Positions 3,001 to 62,963 of a stretch of DNA of 64,000 nt are shown here, in pieces. The DNA is from Deltaproteobacteria bacterium (GTDB taxonomy: Bacteria; Desulfobacterota; Binatia; HRBIN30; JACQVA1). Location of the stretch: contig JACOST010000032.1 in NCBI GenBank assembly GCA_016178705.1, positions 62,001 to 126,000 on the forward strand, read 5' to 3'. The notes beneath the pieces are model-generated. The model was not told the origin of the DNA. It did not search any database and was given only the letters and a program-made list of their open reading frames with translations. Within the stretch, counting starts at the first letter, position 1; each line of letters opens with the position of its first letter. The position numbers and the translations under genes are program-made.

Positions 3001-6000
3001 TCGCCCTCCCGCGCGTCGGAGCGTGCGACAGTCGCATCGATGCGCGGAGCCGCGCCGTGCGCGCGCTCGACGAGCAACGTCGCGCCCTTGGCTTCCCACA
3101 ACTCGATCGCGTGGGCTTCCTCGGCGTTCGCTTCGTCGGCGCGACCGGCCGCGCGCAATGCCACGGCGAGCGCGCTGCGCGCGTTGGCGTGATGCAGCAG
3201 CGCATCGGTGGCGGCGGCGATGTCGACGGCGGCGCGCGCGAAGTCGATGGCGGCCGCATGTTCGCCGCGTTGCGCCAGGGCTTCGGCGCGCACGCCGCGC
3301 CAAGTGATCGCGGCTTGCAAGTCATCGCCGCCGAGCAACTCGCTCTCATGGCTGAGCGCTTCGGCTTCCGCCGCCCGGCCCTGCGCGAGCAGCGCGCGGC
3401 CGAGGAACGCCGCCGCGCGCGCCGCGTCGATGCCGAGCCCATGCGTGCGCAACCCGTCGTACGCGCCGCGCAGGCAACTCTCGGCGGCGACCGCGTCGCC
3501 TTCGAGGAGATCGATCAAGCCGGCGAACACGTCGGCTTCGAGCACGCGCTGTGTGATGCCGAGCTCTTCGACCATTTTGCGCGATGACACAATCATGCGC
3601 CGCGCCGCCTCGGTGCGTCCGCGCAACGCTTCGAGTACCGCCTGGCAGCGCAGCGCAACCGCCTCGACCGCCGGCGCGCCTTGCGTGATGCGCAGCACGC
3701 GCACGACGTCGAGGCAACGTCCGCTGGCGCGGGTCACCGGGCTCGGTCCCCACAGCGCGGCGAGCGGCGCTCCGGCGAGCACCGCGTTCGAGCGCCGCCG
3801 ATCGTTCGCACGGCGAGCGGCGGCGAGCGCCTTGTCGAGCGCGGCTTCGCAGGCGCCGACCTTGCCGAGGCGTTGCAGCGCCAGCGCGTGTACCGAGTGC
3901 GCCTTCGCCTCGCCGGCCGCGTCACCTACAGACACCATCGCGTCAGCCGCCGCCGCGACCGCGTCGGCGGTGGCCTGCAGTGCCTGCGGATCGGTGAGCA
4001 CGGCGAGCTGGCCGACGAAGCAGGTGTGCCAGGCGCGGAGACGCTGGGGGTTAGGGGTTAGGGGGTTGGGGGTTACGGAAGAATCGGACTTGGCCCTTAA
4101 CCCCTTAGCCCCGTAACCCCCTAACCCCTTGTCTTCAACGAAGCGAGCCAGTTCTGCGATCGCTTTCGTTGCCGGGCCGACGTCACCGGCGGAGAGCAAC
4201 GCTTCGCACCAATCGAGCGCCAGGTCGGCGCGCGCCGAGTCCGATTCATCGAGCCGATCAAGGGCGCGGCCGAGCAGGTTGGCTGCTGGCGAGAGATCAT
4301 CACGCGCCAGCGCGCGCCGGCCCGCAGCGGCGAGATAGCGCGCCGCGCGCTCGCCGAGCGCGCGGCCGTGCGCGGCGATCGGACCCAATTCGCGCAGGTG
4401 CTGATGGGCTTGCTCGAAGTGCCAGCCGAGCGTCTCGTCGTGCTCGATCGATTCCCCGACTTTCGTCTCGATCCAATCGGCGAGCCGCGCGTGCAGCTCG
4501 GCGCGCGTGCCCTTCAATACGCGACGGTACGCCGCGTCGCGGATCAGCCCGTGATGAAAGCGCAGCGCCGGCTCGCCGAGGAACCAGCCGGTGTCGGACT
4601 CGATCACCTCGCTGCGTCGGAGCGATTCGAGCCGCGCGTCGAGGTCGCTGACCTCGCGCGGCAGCAGATGGGCGACCGCGCTGCGCGAAAATTGTCGGCC
4701 GACGACGGCGGCGCGCTCTAGTACCGCGCGATCCTCCGGGCGCAGCCGCTCGATGCGGGCGGCGAGCAGCGCGTGAATGGTCGGCGGCATGTCGAGCGCG
4801 GCGAGATCGACGGCCGCGGTCCAGTGATCGCCGTCTTGTTTGAGCGCGCCATCGGTCACCAGCATGCGCACCAGCTCCGCGAGAAAAAGCGGGTTGCCTT
4901 CGCTGGTGGCGAGCACACGCCCAGCAACCGCCGCGGGCAACGCATCGGCGCCGATCACGTTCGCGGCCAGCCGCGTCGCCGCCGCGGCGTCGAGTCCGCC
5001 GAGCGTGATCACATCGGAGACGAGACCGCCCGTCGCCGTCAGCGACGAGCGCGCGTCGCGCAACTCTGGGCGCGCACCGGCGAGTACCAGCAACGGCATC
5101 TCCTTGCCCCACTGCACGAGGTGCTCGACGAGATCGAGCAGCAGCGGCTCCGCCCACTGTAAGTCGTCGATGGCAAGCACGACCGGCCGCGTCGTGGTCA
5201 ACCCGGCGAGGAAGCGGCGGACGACGAAGAAGGTTTCCTCGGGTGACCCTGGCGTGCCAGCGAGCAGCGCGGCGATGCCGTCGGCGATGCGGGCGCGATC
5301 GTCACTGGCGGGCAGCGCGGCGGCGATGGCCGCATCGGACCGATCCGACCGATCGGACGGATCGGACAGGTTCGCGCGCAACGCCTTCGCGATCGGCGCG
5401 AACGTCGCGCCACCGGCGGACTCGCACTGCGCGGTCAACACCGTGGCGCCGTCGCCCAGGCGGCGGGCGAGTTCCTCGATCAAGCGCGATTTGCCCAGCC
5501 CGGGCGAGCCGAGCACCACAGCGAGGCGCGCGCGGCGTTCCGCAACCGCCGCGTCGTAGACCGCCAACACGCGCCGCAGCTCGTCGTCGCGTCCCACGAA
5601 GGCGATGGCGGCGGCCGCCGCGGGCCGTTCGAGCGAGAGCACGCGATACGCCGCCATCGTCTCGGTGCGCCCCTTGAGCGCGAACACCCCGGCGGGGGCC
5701 AGTGTCACCAACTCACTAACCAGCCGTCGCGTTGCTTCACCGATGATCACCTCGCCGGCGCGCGCTTCTTGCTGCAAGCGCGCCGCGACGTTGGCCGGAT
5801 CGCCGACGACGTCGGTGTTGTCGGCGCTGACGACGACCTCGCCGGTGTTGATGCCGACGCGTACTGATAGGGGGTTAGGGGTTAGGGCTTGGGGGTTAGG
5901 GCTTGGGGAAAGCGGCTGATCCCCTAGCCCCTTAACCGCCTCCACGATCGCGACGCCGGCGCGCACGGCGCGGATGGCATCGTCCTCGGCGACGCGCGGG

Positions 6001-43321: not shown

Positions 43322-43350
43322 CTTTCCTCCTCGGACACGGTCAAATGACT

Positions 43351-43448
43351 ACAACGGATTGAACGGATTAAACAGATTTTACGGATCTTGAGAAGGGCTC
43401 GCCCATCCCCCTTTCCGATCAATCCGTTTAATCCGTTCAATCCGTTGT
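43351..43448. repeat. Perfect 23-bp inverted repeat built of 9-nt units
   Basis: Arms at 43351-43373 (starts ACAACGGATTGAACGG) and 43426-43448 are exact reverse complements with a 52-nt loop. Each arm is made of the 9-nt unit ACGGATTGA or its complement. It lies between the MMPL exporter and LolA-like genes, so the transcript could form a strong hairpin there. Confidence 0.9.
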
Positions 43449-43458
43449 ACTCTTTCTC

Positions 43459-49319: not shown

Positions 49320-50441
49320 TTAAGCGAGCTGCTTGCGGAAGCGCGTCAGGCTCAACAGCGTGAAGCCGATCACGAACGCGCCGAGCACCGCGAAGTCGCG
49401 CCATTGATCGACCATCGTCGTGCCCTTGAGCGTGAGCCCGCGAATCGCCTCGACGAAGTACGTCATCGGCAGGCTCCACGCGACCGGTTGCAGCCACCCC
49501 GGAATCGCTTCGATTGGAAACACGAAGCCGGACATCAACACCGAGGGCACGATGACGAAGACCGCCATGAAGTTGGCCTGCAACTGCGTTTCCGACACGG
49601 TCGAGATCAATGCCCCGAGCGCCAACAGCGCGAGGATGAACAGCGTCGCCAGCAACCCCACCGACAGCGCGGCGCCGTTGAACGGCAACGCAAAGACGAA
49701 CGATGCCAGCAACGAGACGACAACAAAATCAACGGCGGCGATCAGGCCGTAGGGAATCATCTTGCCGGCAATCAACGCCAGCCGGGAAATCGGCGTCACC
49801 AGCAATTGCTCGATCGTCGCCTGCTCCTTCTCGCGTACCAGACCCGCCGACAACGTCAGCACCACCAGCATGATCACGATACCGATCGTGCCGGGCAAAA
49901 AGAAATCCGAGTCGCGCAATTGGGGATTGAACAGAATATTTTCGGCGATCTTGATCGGCGGCAGCCGCACCGGCAGCGCAGGATGCTCGGCATCGTCGAA
50001 CTTCAACTCTTCGGCCGCATCGTCGCTGGCGACCACCCGAGCGCCGTAGAGTGCCGCCTGTGCCAATGTCGGCATCGTCCCGTCGACGAACAACGGAAAG
50101 TCGGTCTGCTGATTGTTGGCGAGGCGTTCGCTGAAGCCCTTGGGAATGATCAACCCGAGGCGCGCCTCGCCGGTTTGCAGCCATCGCCGAATCGTGGCTT
50201 CGGAATCGACCTCGATCACGTTGAACTGACCGTTGCCGCGCAAGCGATCCTTCACGGTGGCGCTGAAGAAGGACTGCTCCTGGTCCAGCACGACCACTCG
50301 CATGTGATCCACTTTCAGCCGCAGCGCGTAGCCGAAGAGAATGACCAGCAGCACCGGCAACGCCAACACGAAGCCAATCAGCTGCGGATCGCGGCTGATG
50401 TGCAGGAACTCCTTCATGATCATGGCTCGCAGTGCTTTCAT
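49320..50441 (-). CDS. ABC-2 type transporter permease
   Basis: A 373-residue permease of the YhhJ/YbhR class: the first membrane helix (QLIGFVLALPVLLVILFGYALRL), a periplasmic domain of about 140 residues, then five helices including the conserved LVREKEQATIEQLLVTPISRLALIAGKMIPY and the ending VEAIRGLTLKG. It pairs logically with the ATPase at 46305-47312. Its start overlaps the histidine kinase stop as ATGA, which couples it to the kinase rather than to the ATPase. Confidence 0.92.
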   Translation of the reverse strand: MKALRAMIMKEFLHISRDPQLIGFVLALPVLLVILFGYALRLKVDHMRVVVLDQEQSFFSATVKDRLRGNGQFNVIEVDSEATIRRWLQTGEARLGLIIPKGFSERLANNQQTDFPLFVDGTMPTLAQAALYGARVVASDDAAEELKFDDAEHPALPVRLPPIKIAENILFNPQLRDSDFFLPGTIGIVIMLVVLTLSAGLVREKEQATIEQLLVTPISRLALIAGKMIPYGLIAAVDFVVVSLLASFVFALPFNGAALSVGLLATLFILALLALGALISTVSETQLQANFMAVFVIVPSVLMSGFVFPIEAIPGWLQPVAWSLPMTYFVEAIRGLTLKGTTMVDQWRDFAVLGAFVIGFTLLSLTRFRKQLA

Positions 50442-52300
50442 AGAGCGCCCCCCTGTGCCGCTTCCGCAGTCGGCGCGACCGCGCGGACTGGCAGTGTGAT
50501 GCGAAAGGTCGTGCCCCGACCGACTTCACTCTCGACTTCGATCTTGCCGTGATGGTTTTCGATGATGCGATAGGTGATAGCAAGCCCCAAGCCGGTACCG
50601 ACTCCGACCCCTTTGGTCGTAAAGCCCGGATTGAAAATCTTTGCCAGGTTCTCCGGCGGAATGCCGGAACCCGTGTCGCTGATCGCGATCGTCACCGAGT
50701 CGGGAGTTGCCTGGCGCGTGCGGATGGTGATCTCGCCCGTTCCCTCGATCGCGTGCGCCGCGTTAACCAGGACGTTGAGGAACACTTGATTGAGCTGATT
50801 GGCGTAGCAATCCACTTGCGGAAGCTGACCGTAGTCGCGTTGCACCGTGATGCGGCCCTTCATCAGGTGCGCCGCCAACGTCAGGGTCGACTCCAGGCCT
50901 TCGTGGAGATCGGCTGGCTTGCGCTCAGCTTCATCGAGGCGGGCAAAATTTCGCAAACTCTTCACGATCGCCCCGATGCGGCGACACGCCTCGCGACTGA
51001 CCTCGGCCATGCTGGCGGCCTTGTCGATGAACGTACCCGCCTTGGCGCTCAGCGCCGGATCGGCGAGTGACTCCTTTACTTTGTTCAGTGCGCGCACGAC
51101 GAGATCGGTGTTGCTCGCCACCGCACCGAGCGGCGTGTTGATTTCGTGCGCGACCCCGGCGACCAGGTCGCCGAGTGCCGCCATCTTCTCCGACTGCACG
51201 AGCTGCGACTGGGCCTCGCGCAGATCTGCCAAGGCGCCCGTCAGTTCCACCGTGCGCTGCTGGACCTTTTCTTCGAGGTTTTCGTACAGGCGCGCGTTCT
51301 CGATCGCGACCCCACCCATGCCGGCGAGCGCTTCGAGCAGTTGCTGATCCGCATCGGTGAATGGCCCGCTGCGCCGGTTGAGTACTTGGATGATGCCGAT
51401 GATGCGCTCGCGCGCGCGGATCGGGACGCACAGGATCGAGCGGGTTGTGATACCGGTCTCCTGATCGTACTTGTGCCCCTGCCAGCGCGGATCGTGATAG
51501 GCGTCCTCGATGCGAATGACCGCGCCGGTGGCGGCGACGCGCCCGCTGATGCCTTGACCGATCGGCACGGAGAGGGTTTGCAATTTTCCCGCCCCTTCGC
51601 CGAGCGCGACCTCCCAGCGCAGCGTCTGCGTCGGCTCATCGAGCAGCATCACCGAACAGGCTTCCGCATCGAGCACGTCACGCACCCGCTTCATCATCGC
51701 GCCGAGCAGATCGCGCAAGTGCAGCGTGCCGCACAGTGCCGCGCCGACTTCCACCAGGATGGAGAGCGAGTCGGGAGGGATGGTGGTGTGGCTCTGCGCG
51801 GCCAACGGAATGCCGGTCGTGACTCGTGTTCGTGACTCGTGTTCGGAGATCATTGCCGTCTGGCTCTGTGCGGTCAACGGGATGCCAGCGGTCTCAGCCT
51901 CGGTCTCCCCGTTTTCCCGAGTAGCCGTCCCGAGTGCGGCCGCAGGCCGCGTATCGAGGAGCGGCGTATCGAGGGACCCGCCGGCGCCAGACTCGTGGCG
52001 TTGCTGATACCGTTCCCAATCCTTCGTCGCTGCCTCTTGCAGTCCCTGAAGGTCTCCACGAACCAGCGCCGCCTTTTTCGCGCGGCTCCAATTCTTGATG
52101 CGAGCCTCAGCACTCTCGGCCTCCTCTCGGGTCGAGAACTCCTCAAACCAGATCAATCGCACCGGCAAGCGAGTCGCAGTGTGCGCCGCGCCGCGGCCTT
52201 CTTGATGCTCAAGGAGACGCTTGTCCAAGGCGTCGGTCTGTCCAACGTAGTAGGAGTCGTCGGCACACAACAACATGTATGCGTAGAATGGCTGGGCCAT
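50438..52300 (-). CDS. GAF sensor histidine kinase with N-terminal GIY-YIG nuclease domain
   Basis: A 620-residue product. Residues 1-100 are a complete UvrC/YhbQ-like GIY-YIG domain ([43 protein letters not shown]). Residues about 108-135 are translated repeat C, and about 138-175 an imperfect duplication ([11 protein letters not shown] / [11 protein letters not shown]). A GAF domain follows (180-345), then a coiled coil ([17 protein letters not shown]), HisKA with H385 ([12 protein letters not shown]) and an HATPase (N-box [39 protein letters not shown]). The kinase has no membrane helix. The GIY-YIG part looks inserted: it is exactly bracketed by inverted copies of repeat C, and the kinase could start internally at MISEHES. 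A TTG at 52306 is an alternative start. Confidence 0.88.
51781..51895. repeat. Imperfect direct repeat and 13-bp tandem repeat inside the kinase gene
   Basis: A 30-nt unit (GTGGCTCTGCGCGGCCAACG-type) recurs at about 51789 and 51858, with a perfect 13-nt tandem (TCGTGACTCGTGT twice) between them. It is in frame and codes the linker before the GAF domain. Confidence 0.75.
51907..51979. repeat. Repeat family C, copy 1 (3' border of the GIY-YIG segment)
   Basis: About 73 nt reading CCCCG...CCCGAGTAGC, then a GCGGCCGCAGGCCGC hairpin, then GTATCGAG...GCGTATCGAGGGACC on the + strand. It is in frame within the kinase gene, immediately after the GIY-YIG coding segment, and is an inverted match to 52310-52383. 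Confidence 0.88.
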
Positions 52301-52309
52301 CTTCAAGCT

Positions 52310-52383
52310 GGTCCCTCGATACGCAGCATCTCGATACGCCGCCTTCGGCGGCTACTCGATGCTGCTACTCGGGAAAGCGGGGG
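52310..52383. repeat. Repeat family C, copy 2 (5' border of the GIY-YIG segment)
   Basis: About 74 nt in the opposite orientation to copy 1, with the internal hairpin GCCGCCTTCGGCGGC and the ends GGTCCCTCGATACGC and TACTCGGGAAAGCGGGGG. It ends 10 nt before the GIY-YIG ATG at 52300. Confidence 0.88.
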
Positions 52384-52457
52384 TTCGAACGTCTTCATAT
52401 GGCATCAGTGCTTGCTTCTACGGATTGTTCCGGAAAGTGACAGTGCGCTGGCCTTCA

Positions 52458-53144
52458 TCACAATGGCAAGTCCTCTAGCCGAAGCTCGCTGACGTGCGCA
52501 ATCACCAAGTCGGCCGGCAACGCGGCGGCCGGATGATGCGTGGTCACGCCGATGCAGCGCATGCCAGCGGCGCGCGCACCGGCTATGCCGAGCGGGGAAT
52601 CTTCGACCACGACGCACTCCGCGCCGGTCAGAGCCATCCCGGCGCGCGTGTTCAGCTCGCGCAGCGCGCACAGAAACGGATCGGGCGCGGGTTTACCGGC
52701 CATCACATCCTCTGCCCCAACCACTGCGGCAAAGAGCGCGCGGACGCCGGCGCGATCGAGAATGGCCTCGATCTCATCGCGGAACGCCCCCGATGCGACC
52801 GCCAGTACGAAGCGCGGATGCAACCGCCGCAGCAACTCGGGCACGCCGTCGTAGAGCGTCGCCCCCTGCGACAACGCAGCGAACTGTGCGCGCTTGCGGG
52901 AGACGAGCGCGTCGAGTTCGGTCGCGGTGGGGCGTCGACCGGCACGGGCGTACAACGCGGCCAGGCAGGCGCGATCGGGCAAGCCGAGGAACTGCGTGAA
53001 GTAGTCCGCCTGCGAGAGATCCATCCCGTCACTGCGCGCCACCGCCTGAAACGCCGCACAGTGCAAAGCTTCGGTGTCAGCCAACACACCATCGAAGTCG
53101 AAGATCACGGCGCGCACCGAAGAGCCACGGATTATGCCAGACAC
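52458..53144 (-). CDS. HAD-family phosphatase (beta-phosphoglucomutase/phosphoglycolate phosphatase-like)
   Basis: A 228-residue HAD subfamily IA hydrolase: motif I FDFDGVLADTEALH (nucleophile and acid Asp), motif II VASGAF, motif III Lys in AGKPAPDPF and motif IV VVVEDSPLGIAGARAAG. The cap is helical (ARSDGMDLSQADYF...). The family dephosphorylates sugar phosphates or phosphoglycolate; the substrate cannot be told. It diverges from the response regulator after about 50 bp. Confidence 0.92.
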   Translation of the reverse strand: MSGIIRGSSVRAVIFDFDGVLADTEALHCAAFQAVARSDGMDLSQADYFTQFLGLPDRACLAALYARAGRRPTATELDALVSRKRAQFAALSQGATLYDGVPELLRRLHPRFVLAVASGAFRDEIEAILDRAGVRALFAAVVGAEDVMAGKPAPDPFLCALRELNTRAGMALTGAECVVVEDSPLGIAGARAAGMRCIGVTTHHPAAALPADLVIAHVSELRLEDLPL

Positions 53145-53195
53145 GCATTCGCTCGCTGGCTTGACACTGACGACGTGGCCTGGCTATCCGAAGGC

Positions 53196-53684
53196 ATGGC
53201 CGACACCACCCCCGCGACGATTCTGCTCGTCGACGACGAGCCGGCCGTGGGGCAAAGTTTGGCCGCCCTCCTCGAACTCGAGACACCGTACAAGGTGCTG
53301 GTCGAGACCTCACCGCAGCGGGCGATCCAACTCGCTAAAGTCACGCCGCTCGACTTAGTGGTCTCCGACTTTCTCATGCCTGAACTCGATGGCATCGGCT
53401 TTCTCCTCGAGATCCGTGCCCTCTACCCGGAGAGCACGCTCATACTCCTCACCGGGTACGCAGACAAGGAAAACGCCATCCGCGCGATCAACGACGTCGG
53501 CATCTTCCATTACATCGAGAAGCCGTGGGACAACGACGATCTGCTGACCATCATCACCACCGGCCTCGACAAACGGTTACAACTCCACCGGCTGTACGAG
53601 CGCACCCGCGAGCTTGAGGGCCGCGTACAACAACTGCAGCAACGTAATGCGGAACTCGAGCAACGGCTCAAGGGAGCGACGTGA
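53196..53684 (+). CDS. Response regulator with C-terminal coiled coil
   Basis: A 162-residue receiver protein: acidic pair LLVDDEPAVGQ, acceptor D58 in LVVSDFLMPELDG, Thr in LLTGYADKENAIRAIN and Lys in IEKPWDNDDL. The last 35 residues (LYERTRELEGRVQQLQQRNAELEQRL) are a heptad coiled coil with no DNA-binding or enzyme domain. This type often relays to an HD-GYP or kinase partner. The nearby GAF kinase lacks its own receiver and is a plausible partner. Confidence 0.88.
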   Translation: MADTTPATILLVDDEPAVGQSLAALLELETPYKVLVETSPQRAIQLAKVTPLDLVVSDFLMPELDGIGFLLEIRALYPESTLILLTGYADKENAIRAINDVGIFHYIEKPWDNDDLLTIITTGLDKRLQLHRLYERTRELEGRVQQLQQRNAELEQRLKGAT

Positions 53685-53690
53685 TCCGCA

Positions 53691-55103
53691 TCACTGTTTC
53701 TCAAAGGGTTCCGGTTCCTTCTTCCGTTTGTTCCAGCGCCAGAGATTGGCGCGCCAGTTCTGACCGTCACCGGTCGCGGCGAAATATACGAAGTACGCGT
53801 CTTCGCCCATCGGCACCCACGTTCCAACGTTGATATATTGCCCACCCGTAGGAAGCGGCCACGTGCCGGCGGCGTGCGAGTGACCGAAGACCACGTTCTG
53901 CACTTTGAACAACGCGGCGATGCGTTCTGCCGTGTGCCGCAATTGTGCGGCTTCGGCGATGCGCCGGAAACGCAGCGCGCCAACGTACACGATCGATCCC
54001 ATCACGGTCATCGCCGCCACCAGCGCGAGCAACCCGGTCCGCGCCGGGTACCAAATCAGGATGCCGGCGACCGCGGCCGCCAGCAGCCCGCCAAACACGA
54101 TCAGATCCAGGGCCAGAAACCGCGCCGTGGCCAGAACACCGCGCATAACCGGCGAGGCGCGCATCGCATTCACCGCCGCGGCGGTTCCCGATGGCAAGCC
54201 GAACTTTTCATCCACGGCGGCAATCCGCCGATCGTTTTCTTCCCGCACCTGCCGCTCCGCCAGCGGGTTGGGTCGGCCACTCTTGGCCAGGACCCGCCGA
54301 ACCATCGCCCCATACAAGCTGGCCACGCGCGGCAGGATCTTGAGATTGCCGCCGACCACCCAGCCGATGTACTCGCTCACCGACATGATGTTCTCGGCCG
54401 CCATGGCATCGATCGTCTTCATCTGATTCGTGAAGTAACGGATCGCCAACTCCGCAATCGACAGTTGCATGTGGGTCGGCGATTCCGGCACCAACGGATT
54501 GAGCACGTGCTCGGTCGCACAGAACGGATCGTACTGACAGCCATGCTCGACGTACAACAACCCCGGCTCGCACCAGAACCACAACGGAAACTGCACGCGT
54601 TGCGCGACCGCTTCCTTCATCGCCATGTAGCTGAAGTCTTCCGGATGATGCTCGGCGATGAGACGGCGGAAATGGTCCTGCACCTCGGGCCACGACATTT
54701 CGAGATCATGGTTGCCGCGCAACAGGATCACCTCATTGCCTTCCGCGACGAAGCGCGCCAAGGCCAAGAGCAACTGCGGATGACTGGCACGCAGGATACG
54801 GTCGAGCTTCCAGCGCGACTTGGGCGCCTCAGTACCGGGACCGTAGCGCTGCTCGCTCTCAGGGAACGACACCCCGCGCATCAAGCGCTCGTTCGGATCG
54901 GGGAGATCGGTGATGTACAGGAACTCAATAAAATCGCCGCCGATGATCAACCGCCAGCGCCGATCGGCCGCGCGGTTGAGGCGATAGTAGCGGAGGAAGT
55001 CGGCGAACTCTTCGTCGAAGTGATACAGCCCTGCGGTCGGGTTGTTGAACCCGCCACGCAGATGCAGATCGGAGACGATCAGGTAATCAAACGCTACGCT
55101 CAT
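53691..55103 (-). CDS. Calcineurin-like metallophosphoesterase with membrane helices
   Basis: A 470-residue protein with metal-binding motifs SDLHLRGG, GGDFIEF, LLRGNHDLEMSW, the late HG (YVEHGCQYDPFC) and FGHSHAAGTWPL. Two hydrophobic helices near residues 345-395 (DLIVFGGLLAAAVAGILIW, LLALVAAMTVMGSIVYVGAL) separate the last metal motif from the rest, so the protein is probably membrane-anchored. The long insert between HG and the helices is unusual. UDP-2,3-diacylglucosamine hydrolase-like lipid substrates are possible but not shown. Confidence 0.87.
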   Translation of the reverse strand: MSVAFDYLIVSDLHLRGGFNNPTAGLYHFDEEFADFLRYYRLNRAADRRWRLIIGGDFIEFLYITDLPDPNERLMRGVSFPESEQRYGPGTEAPKSRWKLDRILRASHPQLLLALARFVAEGNEVILLRGNHDLEMSWPEVQDHFRRLIAEHHPEDFSYMAMKEAVAQRVQFPLWFWCEPGLLYVEHGCQYDPFCATEHVLNPLVPESPTHMQLSIAELAIRYFTNQMKTIDAMAAENIMSVSEYIGWVVGGNLKILPRVASLYGAMVRRVLAKSGRPNPLAERQVREENDRRIAAVDEKFGLPSGTAAAVNAMRASPVMRGVLATARFLALDLIVFGGLLAAAVAGILIWYPARTGLLALVAAMTVMGSIVYVGALRFRRIAEAAQLRHTAERIAALFKVQNVVFGHSHAAGTWPLPTGGQYINVGTWVPMGEDAYFVYFAATGDGQNWRANLWRWNKRKKEPEPFEKQ

Positions 55104-55197
55104 ACAACTCCTGCTTGCGTATCACCGAGTCGCGGGCGATTTCAATTCAACGCGACCCAGGGCACCCGGGGTTCTCCGGTTGCGCAGCCGCCCGCGA

Positions 55198-55232
55198 ACG
55201 AACTACAAACCACGAACTGCAAACCACGGACT
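55198..55232. repeat. Heptamer tandem repeat before the TPR protein gene
   Basis: Five 7-nt units in register (ACGAACT, ACAAACC, ACGAACT, GCAAACC, ACGGACT) end 9 nt before the Shine-Dalgarno GGGAGG. On the other strand the units resemble the TGGTTCG family at 39473. Confidence 0.85.
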
Positions 55233-55251
55233 TTCCGCTAGGGAGGATGGC

Positions 55252-56889
55252 ATGAAGCTTCGGCTCGCGTTTCTCGCAGTCACCATCTGCGCTCACGCCG
55301 CGCTGGCCCAGGAACATCACGCGGCGACCTCCAAACCCGCTATGTTGCTCACAGGACTCGGCTCGCACCACCACGCGATCGCCACCACGAGCAAGCAAGC
55401 GCAGCAGTTCTTCGATCAGGGTCTGACGCTCGCCTTCGGTTTCAATCACGAGGAAGCCATCCGCTCGTTCCACCGCGCAGCCGAACTCGACCCACAGGCC
55501 GCAATGCCGCAGTGGGGCATCGCCTACGCGCTGGGTCCAAACTACAACATGGATGTCGACAAGCAGCACGAGCAAGCCGCCTACGCGGCCGCGCAGAAGG
55601 CGCTCGCACTCGCCGCGAACGGCCCCGAGCACGAGCGCGCCTACATCGAAGCGCTCGCCACGCGCTACTCCAACGATCCCAACGCCGACCTCAAGCCGCT
55701 CAACGTGGCGTACAAGAACGCGATGGCCGAAGTGGCGAAGCGCTACCCCGATGATCTGGACGCGGCCACGATCTATGCGGAAAGCGCGATGATCTTGCGC
55801 CCGTTCAAGCTGTGGAACCCCGATGGCACGCCGGCCGAAGGAACCGAGGAGATCGTCGCGGTGCTCGAAGTGGTGCTGCGCCGAGATCCAGATCATCCCG
55901 GGGCCAATCACTTTTACATTCACGCGGTCGAGGCATCACCGCACCCTGAGCGCGCCCTCCCCAGCGCCAAGCGGCTCGAAACTGCCGTGCCCGCCGCCGG
56001 CCACCTCGTCCACATGCCGTCACACATCTACATGCGCACCGGCTACTACCGCGACGCCGCCGCCAGCAACGCCGCCGCCGTGGCCGCCGACCGAGCGTAT
56101 CTGCGCACCGTGACGTCCGACGTTCACATGTATCCGCTGATGTACTTCAGCCACAACATCCACTTCCTGGCGTTCGCCAGCGCGATGGCGGGACGCCGCA
56201 GCGACGCGATCGCCGCCGCCAAGGAACTCTATCCCGTCATCAGTCCCAACGCTGTTGAGCTAGCGGGACTGATCGACCCCCTAATTGCGACCCGCTTCCT
56301 CATTCCTCTCCGGTTCCGGGACTGGAAGGAGGTGCTGCGCGCGCCCGAGCCGGATGCAAAGCTCGCCGGCGCTCACGGGATGTGGCACTTCGCCCGCGGC
56401 GTGGCTCGATTGGGGATGGGCGATGCCGCCGCGGCGGAACAAGAACGAGCAGCACTCGATACCGCGCGCCAGACCCTGCCCGACGGTGCCGGCTTCGGCT
56501 TCAGCACTGCCGCCGATATCTTGAACCTGGCCGCTGCGGCGTTCGATGCCCGTCTGGCTGCCACGAACGGCGATAGAAACGCGGCGATCGTCAATTGGCA
56601 GAAAGCAGTCGTCATCGAGGATGGCCTCGCATACAACGAACCGGCCGACTGGTACTATCCGGTGCGCGAGTCGCTCGGCGGTGCGCTGCTGCGCGATGGA
56701 CAATACGCTGAGGCCGAGCAGGTGTTTCGTGCTGACCTCGAGCGCAACCCGCGCAACCCGCGCTCACTCTTGGGGCTTTCGGAAGCCTTGAAGGCGCAAC
56801 ACAAGACGGCCGCCGCCGACACGGTGCACGCAGAGTTTGAGCTCGCGTGGAAGAACGCCGACACCAGGTTGGGCAGCGACGATCTGTAG
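55252..56889 (+). CDS. Secreted TPR-repeat protein
   Basis: A 545-residue protein with signal peptide MKLRLAFLAVTICAHAALAQ and a His-rich mature start (EHHAATS..GSHHHAIATTS). TPR units are visible around FFDQGLTLAFGFNHEEAIRSFHRAAELDPQAAMPQWGIAYALG and ESLGGALLRDGQYAEAEQVFRADLERNPRNPRSLLGLSEAL. Conserved blocks such as LVHMPSHIYMRTGYYRDAA match a widespread bacterial TPR family of unknown role. GGGAGG lies 5 nt upstream of the ATG. The His clusters could bind metal (inference). Confidence 0.87.
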   Translation: MKLRLAFLAVTICAHAALAQEHHAATSKPAMLLTGLGSHHHAIATTSKQAQQFFDQGLTLAFGFNHEEAIRSFHRAAELDPQAAMPQWGIAYALGPNYNMDVDKQHEQAAYAAAQKALALAANGPEHERAYIEALATRYSNDPNADLKPLNVAYKNAMAEVAKRYPDDLDAATIYAESAMILRPFKLWNPDGTPAEGTEEIVAVLEVVLRRDPDHPGANHFYIHAVEASPHPERALPSAKRLETAVPAAGHLVHMPSHIYMRTGYYRDAAASNAAAVAADRAYLRTVTSDVHMYPLMYFSHNIHFLAFASAMAGRRSDAIAAAKELYPVISPNAVELAGLIDPLIATRFLIPLRFRDWKEVLRAPEPDAKLAGAHGMWHFARGVARLGMGDAAAAEQERAALDTARQTLPDGAGFGFSTAADILNLAAAAFDARLAATNGDRNAAIVNWQKAVVIEDGLAYNEPADWYYPVRESLGGALLRDGQYAEAEQVFRADLERNPRNPRSLLGLSEALKAQHKTAAADTVHAEFELAWKNADTRLGSDDL

Positions 56890-56931
56890 CCATCGGCCGT
56901 CGTTCAGGTCTTCATCAAGCGAGCTTCGATC

Positions 56932-59640
56932 ATGCCCGCGCCAACCAGCGATCCCGCCGGCTTCCGCGCGTACAGCGCCGAAGCCATTCTGCGTGACGGC
57001 AGCTCGATTCACATTCGCGCGCTGAGGCCGAGTGACAAGGCGCTGCTGATCGAACACTTTCAGCAGTTGAGTCCGCGCTCGGTGTACTTCCGCTTCTTTG
57101 GCGCGAAGAAGCGCCTCACCGATGCCGAGTTGGCGCGCTTCACCGAGCTCGATTTCGCGCGCAATGCCGCATTGGTAGCCGTCCGCCGCGATGGTGGATG
57201 CGAATTGCTAATCGGCGTTGGCCGCTATTCGAGTAGCGCGGTGGCACACCGCGCCGAAGTCGCATTCGCCGTACTGGACAAGTATCAGGGTCGCGGGGTC
57301 GGCACGCTGCTGCTCGAACACCTCGTGCCGATCGCCCGCGCCAATGGCATCACCGAGTTCGAAGCCGATGTGCTCGGCGAGAACAACCAAATGCTGCAGG
57401 TCTTCGCGGCCAGCGGCTTTACGGTGAAGCGCTCGATTGAAGCCGGCGTGTTCCATGTCGTGTTTGCGACCACTGAGACCGAACAGTTTCTTGCCGCCAG
57501 CCAGCAGCGCGAGCGGCGAGCGGCGGCGCAGAGCATCCGCACATTTCTGCAGCCGCGTTCCGTGGCGGTGGTCGGCGCCTCGCGCAGCCCCGGGTCGATC
57601 GGTGCGGCACTGGTTGCGAACCTCAAACGCGACGGGTTCGCCGGACCGATCTATCCGGTGAATCCCAGCGCCGCCGAGATCGACGGCCTCACCACCTATC
57701 CAACCGTCAGCGCGATCGGCGCGCCGGTCGACCTTGTGCTCATCGCCGTGCCCGCAGCGGCCGTGGAAGCGGCGGTAGCCGATTGCGCGCGCGCCGGCAC
57801 GCGTGGGGTGGTGGTAATCTCGTCGGGCTTCGCCGAGGCGTCGGCGGCGGGGCGCGAAGCGCAACGGCGCTTGACCGAATTCGTCCGCGGCTCCGGCATG
57901 CGCATGGTGGGCCCGAACTGCATGGGCGTACTCAACACCGATCCGGCCATTTCACTCAACGGCACGTTCGCCCCGGTCTGGCCGCCCGCCGGTAACATCG
58001 GCATGTCTTCGCAGAGCGGCGCCCTCGGCCTCGCTATTCTCGACTACGCACGCACGCGCAACTTGGGCATGTCGACCTTCGTCTCGGTAGGCAACAAGGC
58101 CGACGTATCGAGCAACGATCTGCTCGCGTACTGGGCGGAAGATCCCCGCACCGATGTCATCGTGCTGTACCTGGAGAGTTTCGGAAACCCGCGCAAATTT
58201 GCGCGCGTCGCTCCTGAGGTCGCACGCCACAAACCAATCGTCGCCGTGAAATCGGGCCGCTCCGCCGCCGGCACGCGCGCGGCATCGAGCCATTCGGCCG
58301 CACTCGCCAATCTCGATGTCGCCGTTGACGCCCTGTTCGAGCAAGCCGGCGTCATCCGCACGGCGACGCTCGAAGATCTCTTCGACGTGCTGGCGTTGCT
58401 TTCGACCCAGCCTTTGCCACCGAGTCGGCGGGTCGGCGTGGTGACCAACGCGGGCGGCCCCGGCATACTACTCGCCGATGCCTGCGAAGCGCACGGATTG
58501 CAGCTTCCCCAGTTGTCGGCCGAAACCGTGATGAGTCTGCGCACGTTCCTGCCCGCGCATGCGGGCTACGCCAACCCAATCGACATGACCGCGTCGGCGA
58601 CGCCGGAACAGTACGCGCGGGCGATCGAGTTGATCGGCAGCGACGCGGCGGTCGATGCGCTGGTCGTGATCTACATTCCACCGATGGTCACGCAGCCGGA
58701 GGAAGTGGCAACCGCCATCGCCCGCGCGGCCGGCGCCGTTCCGGCGGCGAAGCCGATTCTGACCGTATTCATCTCGTCGCAAGGGGCGCCGCCGATGCTC
58801 AGCACCGGACCGCGCGGTCGCCTGCCGTCGTACAGCTTTCCGGAAAACGCAGCGCTCGCGTTAGCAGCCGTTGAACGCTACGCACGCTGGCGCGAGCGGC
58901 CACGCGGAACGCCGCTCACCCTCGATCCGTTCGCGCAAAGCGCCGTCCGTGCCGTGGTCGATCGCGTGCTCGTGCAGGCCGACGGACCCACGTGGCTGGA
59001 GCCGAAGGACCTTGCCACGGTGCTGCGCGCGGTCGGTATCGAGTGCGCGGCGAGCGAACAGACCACGGTCGCCGACGCACTCGCAACCGCCAGCCGCATG
59101 GGCTATCCGCTGGTCGCCAAGGCAATCGCCCCCAGCGTTGTACACAAGAGCGACGTCGGCGGCGTCATCATGGGACTACATTCCGCCAAGGCGGTCGCAG
59201 TGGCGGTGCGGACGCTGGATGAGCGCATGCGCACAATCGGCGCACCGCTCGATGGCGTACTGCTCCAGCGCGAAGTGCCCGGCGGAATCGAAGCGTTGGT
59301 CGGCGTCACCACCGATCCTATTTTCGGACCGCTGGTGGTCTGCGGCATGGGCGGGGTGTTGGTGGAACTGCTACACGACGTGTCGTTTCACCTAACTCCG
59401 GTCAGCGACATCGATGCCGTCGAGATGATCGGCAAGCTGCGCGCGCGCCCGTTGCTCGACGGCTACCGCGGCGCGCCGGCCGGCGATCGCGACGCGCTTG
59501 CCGGCGTGATCCAGCGTATTTCAGCACTGGTGGAACTGGTACCGGAGCTGCGCGAACTCGACCTCAATCCGATCAAAGTGCTCCCGCCCGGTCAGGGCGC
59601 GATCGTCGTCGATGCCCGCATGCGCATTCAACCCGGCTGA
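56932..59640 (+). CDS. GNAT acetyltransferase fused to NDP-forming acyl-CoA synthetase (Pat-like)
   Basis: A 902-residue fusion. Residues 15-180 are a GNAT domain (IHIRALRPSDKALLIEHFQQLSPRSVYFRFFG, acetyl-CoA loop DKYQGRGVGTLLLEHL). From about 205 comes the acyl-CoA synthetase (NDP-forming) alpha part with CoA-binding fold (RSVAVVGASRSPGSIGAALVANL, MVGPNCMGVLN, SSQSGALGLAILDYA), then the ATP-grasp-like beta part (YPLVAKAIAPSVVHKSDVGGVIMGL, ELDLNPIKVLPPG). This layout is that of Pat-type protein acetyltransferases, in which the synthetase half is often inactive. Here the region of the phospho-His still reads ASSHSAALA, so activity of that half is possible. Confidence 0.93.
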   Translation: MPAPTSDPAGFRAYSAEAILRDGSSIHIRALRPSDKALLIEHFQQLSPRSVYFRFFGAKKRLTDAELARFTELDFARNAALVAVRRDGGCELLIGVGRYSSSAVAHRAEVAFAVLDKYQGRGVGTLLLEHLVPIARANGITEFEADVLGENNQMLQVFAASGFTVKRSIEAGVFHVVFATTETEQFLAASQQRERRAAAQSIRTFLQPRSVAVVGASRSPGSIGAALVANLKRDGFAGPIYPVNPSAAEIDGLTTYPTVSAIGAPVDLVLIAVPAAAVEAAVADCARAGTRGVVVISSGFAEASAAGREAQRRLTEFVRGSGMRMVGPNCMGVLNTDPAISLNGTFAPVWPPAGNIGMSSQSGALGLAILDYARTRNLGMSTFVSVGNKADVSSNDLLAYWAEDPRTDVIVLYLESFGNPRKFARVAPEVARHKPIVAVKSGRSAAGTRAASSHSAALANLDVAVDALFEQAGVIRTATLEDLFDVLALLSTQPLPPSRRVGVVTNAGGPGILLADACEAHGLQLPQLSAETVMSLRTFLPAHAGYANPIDMTASATPEQYARAIELIGSDAAVDALVVIYIPPMVTQPEEVATAIARAAGAVPAAKPILTVFISSQGAPPMLSTGPRGRLPSYSFPENAALALAAVERYARWRERPRGTPLTLDPFAQSAVRAVVDRVLVQADGPTWLEPKDLATVLRAVGIECAASEQTTVADALATASRMGYPLVAKAIAPSVVHKSDVGGVIMGLHSAKAVAVAVRTLDERMRTIGAPLDGVLLQREVPGGIEALVGVTTDPIFGPLVVCGMGGVLVELLHDVSFHLTPVSDIDAVEMIGKLRARPLLDGYRGAPAGDRDALAGVIQRISALVELVPELRELDLNPIKVLPPGQGAIVVDARMRIQPG

Positions 59641-59663
59641 TGGCGGATCGCGTATGGCAGATA

Positions 59664-59705
59664 GCTGATGGCTGATCGCCTACTGCCCACTGCCTACTGC
59701 CTACT
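59664..59705. repeat. Heptamer tandem repeat that supplies a stop codon
   Basis: Six 7-nt units in register (GCTGATG, GCTGATC, GCCTACT, GCCCACT, GCCTACT, GCCTACT). The TAG stop of the leftward gene at 59694-59696 is inside this run. Same family as 6225-6252. Confidence 0.87.
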
Positions 59706-60149
59706 AATCCCTTCCACCCGCACCGGCACTCCGGCTCCGATCTGCGATCCCACCCAGCTCGCCAGCCACGCACGCCAGTACTTCTGGCGCATGAGGTCGA
59801 TCACGCGCTGCGCTGCGGCGGGATCGGTGATGACGATGGCGCGGCCGCGCAGCTTCGTCCCGGCGATGTCGAGCGCCACCTCGGGATGATGCTTCACATT
59901 TACCAGCCATCCCTTGCGGGCGTTCTTGCCCGCTTGCACGAGCAGGTGGTCGCCCTCGACGACGAACCAAATCTCGGCGACGCGTTGCTGGCCGCTCTTG
60001 CGCCCAGTGGTCGTGAGCTTGAGAGTCTTCGCGTTCGCAACAGCAGCCAGAGTCGTCGACAGGTCGGCCATTGGTTCTCCCCACGCGGGCGCGACCAGAG
60101 CGAGCACCCCGCACAACGTCAGCCAAGCGCGATTCCGAACGTGATCCAT
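59694..60149 (-). CDS. DUF385/deazaflavin-dependent nitroreductase-like small protein
   Basis: A 151-residue protein with an N-terminal hydrophobic signal (RAWLTLCGVLALVAPAWG), then TLKLTTTGRKSGQQRVAEIWFVVEGDHLLVQAGKNARKGWLVNVKHHPEVALDI, the pattern of the split-barrel F420H2-dependent reductase family. A signal-like start is unusual for a cofactor-dependent cytoplasmic enzyme; the real start may be the internal MADLSTTL. The last residues ISRQ and the stop come from a heptamer repeat. Catalytic activity and cofactor are unproven. Confidence 0.75.
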   Translation of the reverse strand: MDHVRNRAWLTLCGVLALVAPAWGEPMADLSTTLAAVANAKTLKLTTTGRKSGQQRVAEIWFVVEGDHLLVQAGKNARKGWLVNVKHHPEVALDIAGTKLRGRAIVITDPAAAQRVIDLMRQKYWRAWLASWVGSQIGAGVPVRVEGISRQ

Positions 60150-60425
60150 GGTGCGCCAGTTTAGTCGGTTGCCGTGCCGACACAACCGGCGTAACCGTGT
60201 TCTCCGCGGTGCGACTGTGCTCAAGAAGGCCCTCGATACGTTCGCGTCGCTCACACTCGGGCAAGCGGATTTTGGCAAGCCCTGAAGAACACAGCCGCTT
60301 CCCCGAGTAGCCGCACTGAGTAGAAGCCGAAGGCTTCGTATCGAAGGGCAGCGTATCGAGGGGCTCCTTCTCGCCCAGAGCCTCTCGCTACTGACAGCGA
60401 CGCCTGCGGCTGGTAGCGTCGCCCC
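60150..60425. other. Intergenic region carrying repeat C remnants
   Basis: 276 bp between divergent genes. It holds a full repeat C copy (60296-60368) and a degenerate inverted partner (60229-60262). No gene or clear promoter is visible. Confidence 0.55.
60296..60368. repeat. Repeat family C, copy 3
   Basis: Starts GCTTCCCCGAGTAGCC, contains the hairpin GAAGCCGAAGGCTTC and ends GCGTATCGAGGGGCTCC; same orientation as the copy at 51907. A short inverted partial copy (CCCTCGATACG...ACTCGGGC) lies at 60229-60262. Confidence 0.85.
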
Positions 60426-62963
60426 GTGCCCGTGTCCATCGATGACCGCTTTACCGCCAGCGCCGCCGGCGCGTTGCGCGCGGCCATCGCCGACGCCGGC
60501 GGCAACGAGGTGTTCCTGCTCGCCACGCTCGACGACCACGCGCGTGTGGCGTCGGTGCGCGTGCTCGCGCGCGGTAACCGGCACGCGGTACCGGCCCTGC
60601 TGCAAGTCCCTCGGCCCGGCGAGGTCGTGGTGCACAACCATCCGAGCGGCGAACTCGTCCCGTCCGATGAGGATCTGGCGATCGCGTCGGCGCTCGGCAA
60701 CAACGGCGTCGGGGCCTACATCGTCAACAACGCCGCCACCGATCTGTACGTTGTCGTCGAACCGCACCGGGCGCCGGTGGCCGCGCGCATCGCGATCAAC
60801 GAGACCAGTGCGCGGCTAGCGCCTGGCGGCACCATCGCGACCGCGCTCGCCGGCTATGAGCATCGGGCCCAACAATTGCGCATGCTCGAAGCGGTGGTCA
60901 CCGCGTTCAACGACGGCACCACGCTGACCGTCGAAGCCGGCACTGGCACCGGCAAATCGCTCGCCTACCTGCTGCCCGCAATCGAATGGAGCCTGCAGAA
61001 CCGCGAGCGAGTCGTCATCTCGACGCACACGATCAACTTGCAGGAACAACTCATCAACAAAGATCTCCCGCTCCTCACACAGCAGAACGGACTCGCCTGC
61101 ACCACCGCGCTGGTCAAAGGCCGGGGCAACTACCTCTGCCGGCGCAAAGCCGCGCAGGTAGAGGCACAGGGTGCACAACTGATCGAGGACGATCAGCAGC
61201 GCGAGCTGCAGGATCTGCTCGCGTGGGCCAAGCGCACCAAAGACGGCAGCCTCAGCGATCTCGCGGTGCGCCCGCGGCGTGAGGTATGGGAGCACGTCGT
61301 GTCGGAGAACGACAACTGTCTGCGCGCGCGCTGCCCGTTCTACTCGACGTGCTTCTTCTACAGCGCGCGCCGGGCGGCGGCGCAAGCCGACATCATCGTC
61401 GCCAATCATCACTTGCTGATGGCCGACTTGGCGCTGCGCGAGGAGATCAGCAGCTACACGCAGAACGCGGTGCTGCCGCCGGCGCGGCGGGTGATCATCG
61501 ACGAAGCGCATCACCTGGAGGACGTCGCCACCAACTATTTTGGAAGCCGCCTGAGCTACGCTGCCATAGAACGGACGTTCGGCCGCCTGCGCAGTCAGAA
61601 GCACCCGACCAAGGGCGTGTTGCCAGCGCTGATCATGGCGCTCGAATCCATTGACGGACCAGATGACGTGCCGTCAGCGCAAGGCGCGGTGCGCTGGATC
61701 GAGCACCGGCTGATACCCGCACGCGAGAGCCTGCTCGTCGACGCCGAGCAGTGCTTCACCGAGTTAATGAGCGGCTTGGAGGACGTGCTTGAGCGCCCGC
61801 TCGCCGCCGGCACCGACGAGAAGCTGCGCATCGTCCCGGAGTTTCGCGCCCTCCCCTACTGGAGCACGTTGGAGCGCGCACTCACACGCCTCGGCTCTGC
61901 GCTCGGTGACTACGCGACCGACTTCGCCGGCGTGACCGAACGAGTCGAGCAACTCTCCGACGAAGCCGGCAAGCAAGTGCTGTTTCTCACCACCGAGCTG
62001 CGGGCGTTGCAGGGACGCATCGCCGGCTTCGGCGCCGCCCTACTCGAATTTATCGGCGAGGATGAGAACACCTGCCGCTGGATCGAGGTGCGGCAGCGAC
62101 CGCGCGTTGGAAAAGCCATCGCCTTTCACAGCGCACCAATCGCGGTCGGGCCGCTGCTGCGCAAAGCGCTGTTCGAACAGTTTCCGACGGTCGTCTTGAC
62201 CTCGGCGACGCTCGCCGTCGATCGGCGCTTCGACTACCTGCACGACCGACTGGGACTCAACGCACTCTCCGATCGCGATCGTGTGCTCACGCTGCAGTTG
62301 GACTCGCCGTTCGATTTTGCGCGGCAGGCGATCCTGGCTGTCCCGCGTGACCTCCCCGAGCCGACCGATCCCGGCTACGAAGCGGCCACCCACGAAACCA
62401 TCGCCGAGATCGTGCGCGCGACGCAGGGCGGCACGTTCGTCTTGTTCACCGCGTATGGCGCGCTCAACCGCGCGGTCGCCGCGCTCGGCTCGACGCTCAG
62501 TGCGCAGGGGTTCACCGTGCTGACGCAGGGGGAGACCGACCGGCAACTCTTGCTGAGCCGCTTCGTCGCCGATCCGCGCGCGGTATTATTCGCCACTGAC
62601 AGCTTCTGGGAAGGTGTCGATGTACGCGGCGATGCCCTGCGCTGCGTGGTCATCACCCGTCTTCCGTTTCGTGTCCCCACCGAGCCGATCGAGCAAGCCC
62701 GTGTCGAAGCCATCACCGCCCGCGGCGGCAACGCGTTCAACGAGCAGACCGTGCCGCAAGCGGCGATCAAGTTGAAGCAAGGGTTCGGACGATTGATCCG
62801 GAGCCGTACCGATCGTGGCGCGGTCGTCCTGCTCGACAGCCGTGTCGTCCGCAAACGCTACGGCCGCGTGTTTCTCGATTCGTTGCCGCCCGCTCGGCGG
62901 CTGATTGGCGATCGGCAGGCCGTGTACACGACGTTGCGACACTTCTTCGCGCAACCAACGTGA
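60426..62963 (+). CDS. DinG/XPD-like Fe-S helicase with N-terminal RadC/JAMM domain
   Basis: An 845-residue fusion. Residues 1-125 are a JAB/MPN-like domain with a complete JAMM pattern: E28, H70-N-H72 and S80-x2-D83 (VVHNHPSGELVPSDED), as in RadC. The rest is a DinG-family superfamily 2 helicase: Walker A EAGTGTGKSLAYLLP, Fe-S cysteines in GNYLC, NDNC, LRARC and FYSTC, the DEAH box in VIIDEAHHLED, and late motifs TSATL, ATDSFWEGVDVRG and QGFGRLIRS. DinG unwinds damaged or R-loop DNA 5' to 3'. The JAMM domain could cleave a protein or act as a binding module. Start GTG at 60426; another GTG lies two codons later. Confidence 0.92.
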   Translation: MPVSIDDRFTASAAGALRAAIADAGGNEVFLLATLDDHARVASVRVLARGNRHAVPALLQVPRPGEVVVHNHPSGELVPSDEDLAIASALGNNGVGAYIVNNAATDLYVVVEPHRAPVAARIAINETSARLAPGGTIATALAGYEHRAQQLRMLEAVVTAFNDGTTLTVEAGTGTGKSLAYLLPAIEWSLQNRERVVISTHTINLQEQLINKDLPLLTQQNGLACTTALVKGRGNYLCRRKAAQVEAQGAQLIEDDQQRELQDLLAWAKRTKDGSLSDLAVRPRREVWEHVVSENDNCLRARCPFYSTCFFYSARRAAAQADIIVANHHLLMADLALREEISSYTQNAVLPPARRVIIDEAHHLEDVATNYFGSRLSYAAIERTFGRLRSQKHPTKGVLPALIMALESIDGPDDVPSAQGAVRWIEHRLIPARESLLVDAEQCFTELMSGLEDVLERPLAAGTDEKLRIVPEFRALPYWSTLERALTRLGSALGDYATDFAGVTERVEQLSDEAGKQVLFLTTELRALQGRIAGFGAALLEFIGEDENTCRWIEVRQRPRVGKAIAFHSAPIAVGPLLRKALFEQFPTVVLTSATLAVDRRFDYLHDRLGLNALSDRDRVLTLQLDSPFDFARQAILAVPRDLPEPTDPGYEAATHETIAEIVRATQGGTFVLFTAYGALNRAVAALGSTLSAQGFTVLTQGETDRQLLLSRFVADPRAVLFATDSFWEGVDVRGDALRCVVITRLPFRVPTEPIEQARVEAITARGGNAFNEQTVPQAAIKLKQGFGRLIRSRTDRGAVVLLDSRVVRKRYGRVFLDSLPPARRLIGDRQAVYTTLRHFFAQPT

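Follow-up and report, generated by a model that had tools for sequence, protein, structure and literature searches.

We identified a small GIY-YIG nuclease gene between two inverted copies of a palindromic repeat in a 64,000-nucleotide stretch of bacterial DNA (hereafter, the window) and found the same arrangement around many of its homologues in other bacteria. Our comparisons established the structure of this unit, the multicopy state of its repeats, a pairing of nuclease clades with repeat classes, co-occurrence of gene and repeats, empty sites and, judging from substitution rates, purifying selection on the nuclease. From these we infer that the unit is probably a cassette in which a clade-A GIY-YIG gene sits between its own repeats, forming a REP/RAYT-like system with an unrelated enzyme that would recognize, cleave and mobilize them. 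A sequence-only reading of the window had proposed such a system with a GIY-YIG enzyme instead of the Y1 transposase, and the clade-class pairing, the flanks and the co-occurrence support that proposal, with the action of the nuclease as its conjectural part.

In the window, the nuclease coding part (51980-52306, minus strand; clade A) matches Pfam PF01541 over residues 7-78 of its ORF at 59.6 bits, compared to a curated cut-off of 22.6. It is bracketed by class-A palindromic repeats on its 5' side (52310-52383, plus strand), with the tail CTACTCGGGAAAGCGG facing outward, and on its 3' side (51907-51979, minus strand). Both copies lie where the sequence-only reading had put them, and the 330 bp between them do contain the GIY-YIG coding sequence. 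The inverted arms comprise 51936-51981 and 52307-52352 (46 nt, 85%) together with 51907-51935 and 52354-52382 (29 nt, 83%). The 3' copy forms an in-frame linker within an apparent fused ORF (50438-52306, minus strand), in which the repeat is read through between PF01541 and the GAF, HisKA and HATPase_c domains of a histidine kinase (Pfam), the conserved kinase part beginning near 51763. The claim that the nuclease had been fused to a GAF histidine kinase thus stands for the ORF and its Pfam domains, the fused protein itself being a prediction, and the kinase could instead start on its own at an ATG at 51853. A REPIN-like pair of the same repeat family, plus then minus, lies at 60229-60368; this is the copy with an inverted partner noted earlier, and it contains no nuclease ORF. 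As single-stranded DNA, the window repeats fold more strongly than shuffled sequences (z = -3.47 for 52310-52375, -2.15 for 51913-51979 and -3.18 for 60229-60370). The core CTCGATACG, picked once the repeats had been seen, occurs eight times in the 64-kb window versus 0.57 expected, a count reached by none of 100 shuffles. Two minor features adjoin these elements: an imperfect tandem duplication (51770-51885) next to the inner repeat, within the N-terminal linker of the kinase, and the inner end of the 5' repeat (52307-52330; TCGAGGGA, in others TCGAAGGA), which resembles a ribosome-binding site of the nuclease gene.

Comparison with related genomes revealed an empty site. Upstream of the kinase lies a HAD-like hydrolase gene (52458-53144, minus strand; named by sequence resemblance), and the DNA between it and the kinase core (51764-52457, minus strand) amounts to an insertion of about 0.68 kb (the HAD stop and the kinase core are 695 bp apart) that is absent from this junction in the relative G001. 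There, the kinase orthologue (75% identity, 459-aa frame) directly follows the HAD gene, whose stop codon shares one base with the kinase ATG (TAATG), so the window segment is extra DNA in the window genome. In a second relative, G013, the kinase is 68% identical in a 470-aa frame with one stop within the match, and the upstream context differs. Orthologous kinases carrying the GIY-YIG domain without repeats, which would have spoken against a captured cassette, were not found in these two closest relatives, neither of which has room for the domain. The suggested comparison of kinase loci yielded an empty site in G001; no target-site duplication was resolved. Repeat insertions were also visible by comparing locus L138 with L141 and L125, and in a conserved, coding-looking stretch in which a class-A repeat pair (L117, 4119-4197) is absent from L118. 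Genome G265 holds two GIY-YIG copies 4.7 kb apart that are 82% identical, each with a class-A motif adjoining it.

The window's own genome contains two abundant repeat families. Exact copies of the family 1 core (TCGATACG-N4-22-CTACTCG) number 83 genome-wide and those of family 2 (CGAGACG-hairpin-CTCCTCA) 77, compared to 0 for the reversed pattern of each. Family 2 forms 29 adjacent plus-minus pairs spaced 71-81 bp, the only order seen between neighbours up to 150 bp apart, and exact cores of family 1 form eight such pairs; as in REP-RAYT systems, the genome thus holds multicopy palindromes with many inverted pairs. Next to the stem, the tag is CTAC (GTAG on the other strand) in family 1 and CTCC in family 2, and it is absent in cores such as TCGACAAGCTCAGGGCGAACGG. 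Among 35 distinct 28-nt family 1 cores (the one length sampled, with outer bases fixed by the pattern), the stem covaried: double-changed cells numbered 47 versus 17.0 in shuffles, the score was 0.345 versus 0.092 (reached in 0 of 500) and 92.4% versus 75.7% of cells were paired, while two of five measures were no higher than in shuffles. Of five PF01541 matches in this genome, two belong to UvrC-sized open frames (647 and 670 aa; judged on size only). The three other genes each lie between palindromic repeats of a different kind, and their left and right flanks scored 70, 84 and 47 on the diagonal of the comparison matrix versus 17-20 off it. The window gene is flanked by family 1. A second gene, L001, belongs to the same clade as the window gene (A) and is flanked by family 2, with adjoining hairpins that fold weakly (z = -1.50 and -0.89); another, L003, belongs to clade B and is flanked by ATTCCGGC..GCCGGAAT palindromes of the CGTC type. 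Around both the L001 gene and the window gene, the repeat order is minus, gene, plus.

Many clade-A genes elsewhere also lie between inverted repeats. Our main sample was the best 80 of 527 homologues in named genomes (L090-L169), which span Nitrospirota, Chloroflexi, several proteobacterial classes, Verrucomicrobia, Sulfuricurvum and Binatia. Within these best 80, an inverted match of at least 30 between left and right flanks was found at 32 of 76 loci (four had no flank) versus 2 of 532 offset controls, and the end motif CTCAG..CGAACG occurred on either side of 71 and on both sides of 57 of the 80. Motif density was 3.6 versus 0.28 per kb, and the orientation was predominantly minus on the left (68, with 32 plus) and plus on the right (74, with 39 minus). 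The core TCGA-N4-30-CTCAGNNCGAACGG, counted for 30 of the 80 best loci, was present in all genomes behind them at 1 to 216 copies, with a single control hit in total. We drew the class-A motif from L090-L169 and loosened it slightly for L210-L239. Out of sample, 30 loci from the Sphingobium order showed an inverted match in 21 cases versus 1 of 120 controls and the motif on either side in 22. GIY-YIG ORFs therefore lie between inverted copies more often than controls do, the comparison that the reading of the window had suggested, and, as for RAYTs, the enzyme gene is flanked by its own repeat family.

A second clade of nucleases is associated with a different repeat class. Clade B, which includes L003, carries the signature GTLYxGVTSxL..GFT..LVWFE and is flanked by GTCA-hairpin-CCA palindromes. 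Because a loose regular expression for these also matched at 148 of 502 clade-A controls, we used a stricter palindrome test in its place (GTCA-palindrome-CC[A/T/C] or CTA). Its pattern came from L240-L257, and we tested it on L258-L337 (77 of 80 loci tested, three being too short). The strict pattern occurred on either side of 57 of the 77 loci versus 37 of 158 offset controls and on both sides of 44, and the inverted match of at least 30 was found at 50 of 77 versus 5 of 158; four of the 77 had a class-A motif and seven had neither the class-B pattern nor an inverted match. Nearest repeats were plus 33 and minus 16 times on the left and minus 32 and plus 20 times on the right, so the order around clade-B genes is mixed. 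By their sequence, these palindromes fit the CGTC REPs as described in passages of Di Nocera 2013 (PMC3733652): they have the features given there, namely a [C/T]GTC tag, a stem starting AT and a CCA tail, although the leading C/T comes from individual examples and does not enter the 57 of 77. According to the same passages, CGTC REPs take in Neisseria dRS3 and Rickettsia RPE-4/6, do not flank transposase genes, have no assigned enzyme and apparently lack a dedicated transposase; a word search of the paper gave 0 occurrences of GIY-YIG. Consistent with the inclusion of dRS3, the clade-B locus of Neisseria gonorrhoeae (L328) has dRS3-type flanks. Other examples were a gene between sufB and sufC on plasmid AZO_p3 of Azospirillum lipoferum (L329), loci of Sinorhizobium meliloti and Novosphingobium aromaticivorans with inverted matches of 47 and 62 and no strict pattern, a Photobacterium locus with the strict pattern on one side and a Rhizobium sp. 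K1/93 locus with neither strict pattern nor inverted match. Genome G772, with 11 GIY-YIG matches, contributed nine sampled clade-B paralogues (L262, L289, L294-L296, L301, L310, L313 and L322) that are 48-70% identical and have differing flanking repeats, with own-locus flank scores of 17 to 114 (at least 30 in four of nine).

Across about 270 GIY-YIG loci, repeats of the TCGA-hairpin-CTCAG..CGAACGG type accompany clade A, and CGTC REPs accompany clade B. The clade tree reduced 191 unique domains to 164 tips, 158 of which fell into clades A (116), B (25) and C (17). The class-A motif was found on either side of 101 of 114 clade-A, 2 of 23 clade-B and 2 of 16 clade-C loci, the class-B motif at 12 of 114, 21 of 23 and 1 of 16, and the inverted match at 88 of 114, 21 of 23 and 2 of 16, respectively. 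Loci with one class only split 91:2 (class A to class B) in clade A and 0:19 in clade B (P = 1.5e-19; p-values in this study overstate independence because the genomes are related), leaving out loci with both or neither (21 of 114 in clade A and 4 of 23 in clade B), such as L003, which has class-B hits on both sides and one class-A hit on the right. Outside the three clades, 31 testable loci included six with class A, nine with class B and nine with an inverted match. Matching also extended to individual loci within genomes. For 60 loci assigned to genomes by hand, 59 of them in genomes with two or more, the median flank score was 45 for the same locus (n = 59) versus 19 across loci (n = 140; Wilcoxon P = 5.7e-9), and a locus's own left and right flanks were the best-scoring pair in 39 of 59 cases.

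Gene and repeats also tended to occur in the same genomes. Among 297 genomes of the window's phylum, the core was found in 19, with five hits overall for the reversed control. All five clade-A genomes in this sample had 23-98 copies, compared to at least seven copies in 5 of 292 others (Fisher P = 1.4e-8). Within genus g46, the clade-A gene was accompanied by 59-98 copies in G193, G265 and G286, and G064 and G101 had 0 copies and weaker GIY-YIG matches only (5e-13 and 2e-14). For the order of Sphingobium (that of G350, taken as Sphingomonadales), 78 of 297 genomes had a clade-A gene, with a median of 14.5 copies versus 0 in the rest (Mann-Whitney P = 1.4e-21) and at least eight copies in 49 of 78 versus 26 of 219. 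In both samples, the cut-offs for a clade-A genome (E<=1e-40 for the phylum and E<=2.4e-27 for the order) were set after the lists had been seen. Three phylum genomes were repeat-rich and had no clade-A gene (G175, 43 copies; G186, 61; G342, 27), and no motif adjoined the GIY-YIG matches inspected there (two of four in G175 and one of three in G186). In the Sphingobium order, ten genomes with no clade-A gene held 20-143 copies, and 11 of the 78 clade-A genomes had 0 copies of the exact core. Copies of the TCGATACG type and no full gene were found among 58 relatives in G009 (55), G008 (23, with a gene fragment), G049 (14) and G005 (12). Rather than a repeat indifferent to GIY-YIG genes, which would have counted against the sequence-only reading, we thus found an association in many genomes, with exceptions in both directions.

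The Tyr, Tyr-x-Gly, Arg, His and Glu positions, which we take to be catalytic in GIY-YIG enzymes, are conserved in clades A, B and C (in clade A: Y 0.98, Y 0.99, G 0.98, R 0.99, H 0.96 and E 1.00). For pairs with defined dS in two sets, dN/dS was 0.02-0.33, which indicates purifying selection on the nuclease. The best sequence matches among solved structures were the UPF0213 proteins 1zg2 and 1ywl, followed weakly by SLX1 (E = 0.0036), and Foldseek concurred; a model of the nuclease (pLDDT 80.8) aligned modestly with I-TevI and SLX1 in VIA-align (Z = 5.5-6.7, with 6.7 for I-TevI). The gene was found at unrelated loci, and in the 15 long ORFs scanned besides that of the window, the GIY-YIG domain is N-terminal to a SpoU/TrmJ-type methylase (12), JAB (2) or a pseudouridine synthase (1); the window ORF adds a kinase to these partners. 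All 12 methylase fusions are in frame and come from the Sphingobium order (L115, L139, L212, L213, L216, L219-L221, L225, L232, L236 and L239), and the recurrence of the GIY-YIG-TrmJ fusion suggests that some nuclease copies have been domesticated.

Similar to REP-RAYT systems and REPINs, the elements described here are short multicopy palindromes with paired units and an enzyme gene flanked by its own repeat. They differ in the enzyme, which is a GIY-YIG nuclease rather than an HUH Y1 tyrosine transposase, and in the conserved ends, which are TCGA/CTCAG..CGAACGG or CGTC/CCA. Most sampled clade-B genes are flanked by palindromes of the CGTC kind, and the window repeats belong to another class (A). 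In domain and size, the nucleases resemble UPF0213/YhbQ-like GIY-YIG proteins, yet clade C, which is presumably the YhbQ-like group, is rarely repeat-flanked, as its inverted matches show. SLX1 shares the GIY-YIG fold but contains additional domains, acts in repair with SLX4 as its partner and has no repeats. Homing endonucleases of the I-TevI type, which literature passages count among GIY-YIG enzymes, and Penelope elements likewise tie a GIY-YIG nuclease to mobility. Unlike these, the window ORF has no additional DNA-binding or reverse-transcriptase domain in Pfam, and Rfam matched no family, and thus no intron, at 50000-61000; five GIY-YIG proteins matched no NCBIfam family. Among the open-licence PMC papers listed, we found no title or abstract start joining GIY-YIG to REPs and no paper pairing 'repetitive extragenic palindromic' with GIY-YIG, and word searches gave 0 occurrences of nuclease or RAYT in RepRanger 2025 and of 'palindrom' in Dunin-Horkawicz 2006. 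Because this search covered open-licence PMC rather than subscription papers or preprints, novelty is provisional.

Under the cassette model, the unit would have inserted between the HAD gene and the histidine kinase gene, after which read-through would merge the nuclease and kinase frames. The nuclease may recognize the repeat once this has folded out into a hairpin or cruciform, perhaps in single-stranded DNA at the replication fork, and cut at the conserved bases by the stem (TCGA/CTCAG..CGAACGG in clade A and CGTC/CCA in clade B). To our knowledge, GIY-YIG enzymes form no covalent intermediate, so joining would have to be the host's: repair or copying would then spread repeats, singly or in pairs, and on rare occasions the gene cassette. 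On balance, we lean towards the broader view that two large palindromic-repeat superfamilies, including the CGTC REPs, owe their formation and spread to dedicated GIY-YIG nucleases. This would be a second, non-HUH route to REP mobility, with nucleases matched to their own repeat variants even where a genome holds several.

A different history, in which a homing-like selfish GIY-YIG gene landed in pre-existing repeats or pairs that served as its target and were spread by something else, seems unlikely, though it draws on the homing nucleases among GIY-YIG enzymes, on the alignment with I-TevI and on the repeat-rich genomes with no gene. Repeat order bears on it in two ways. Pairs in G012, G344 and L117 run minus-plus, as do the repeats around clade-A genes, and there a gene could have landed within a pair. 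In the window genome, pairs run plus-minus and genes minus, gene, plus, which is at odds with insertion into a local pair, an argument limited to that genome. The history is further disfavored by flanks that match better within a locus than with other GIY-YIG loci of the same genome and by the rarity of repeats where the gene is absent. Somewhat less likely still is an SLX1-like role in the host, in which the nuclease would trim or resolve the hairpins of repeats and its gene would stay close to them because they serve to regulate it, with replication slippage or other enzymes spreading the repeats. The branched-DNA nuclease SLX1 is among the closest characterized relatives, and purifying selection and the recurrent TrmJ fusion would suit a host role, but genus g46 has gene and repeats either together or not at all, and the gene occurs at unrelated loci.

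Mobilization by a RAYT or another transposase, with the GIY-YIG link incidental, we regard as improbable. The CTAC (GTAG) by the stem of family 1 is the tag of RAYT-linked REPs according to passages of PMC3733652, but family 2 has CTCC instead. A tblastn search with Escherichia coli RayT gave a best E of 2.0 in 125 stretches of the window's genome (0.41 Mb including overlaps, with ~93% of the genome outside, and from a single query that is weak for divergent RAYTs). These stretches contain the exact copies listed for the two families, about a dozen being covered on just one side; the other loci compared gave nothing at E<=0.01 except RayT itself. For the CGTC REPs, the absence of flanking transposase genes noted in PMC3733652 points the same way. 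Chance placement of small GIY-YIG genes in repeat-rich intergenic space is very improbable: repeats are dense in some genomes, as the strict class-B pattern in offset controls illustrates, but the inverted match separated loci from those same controls, clade C was rarely flanked and flanks matched by locus within genomes. We therefore set chance flanking aside on the offset controls and within-genome matching.

REPs are widespread in bacterial genomes, and the CGTC superfamily has been on record since 2013 as apparently having no dedicated transposase, according to passages of PMC3733652. A GIY-YIG partner makes the question of the CGTC enzyme testable and presents these nucleases as candidates for the missing enzyme behind large bacterial repeat families. 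If true, the proposal would give a function to an uncharacterized group of GIY-YIG nucleases and imply that two unrelated enzyme chemistries have given rise to REP-type elements.

Elsewhere in the window, a segment at 1053-3013 is repeated with a spacing of 945 bp, including a palindrome-bearing stretch of 71 nt present three times and two 300-nt copies that are 90% identical. At 43344-43455, we observed a long hairpin with 55-nt arms that are 2 nt apart and 78% complementary.
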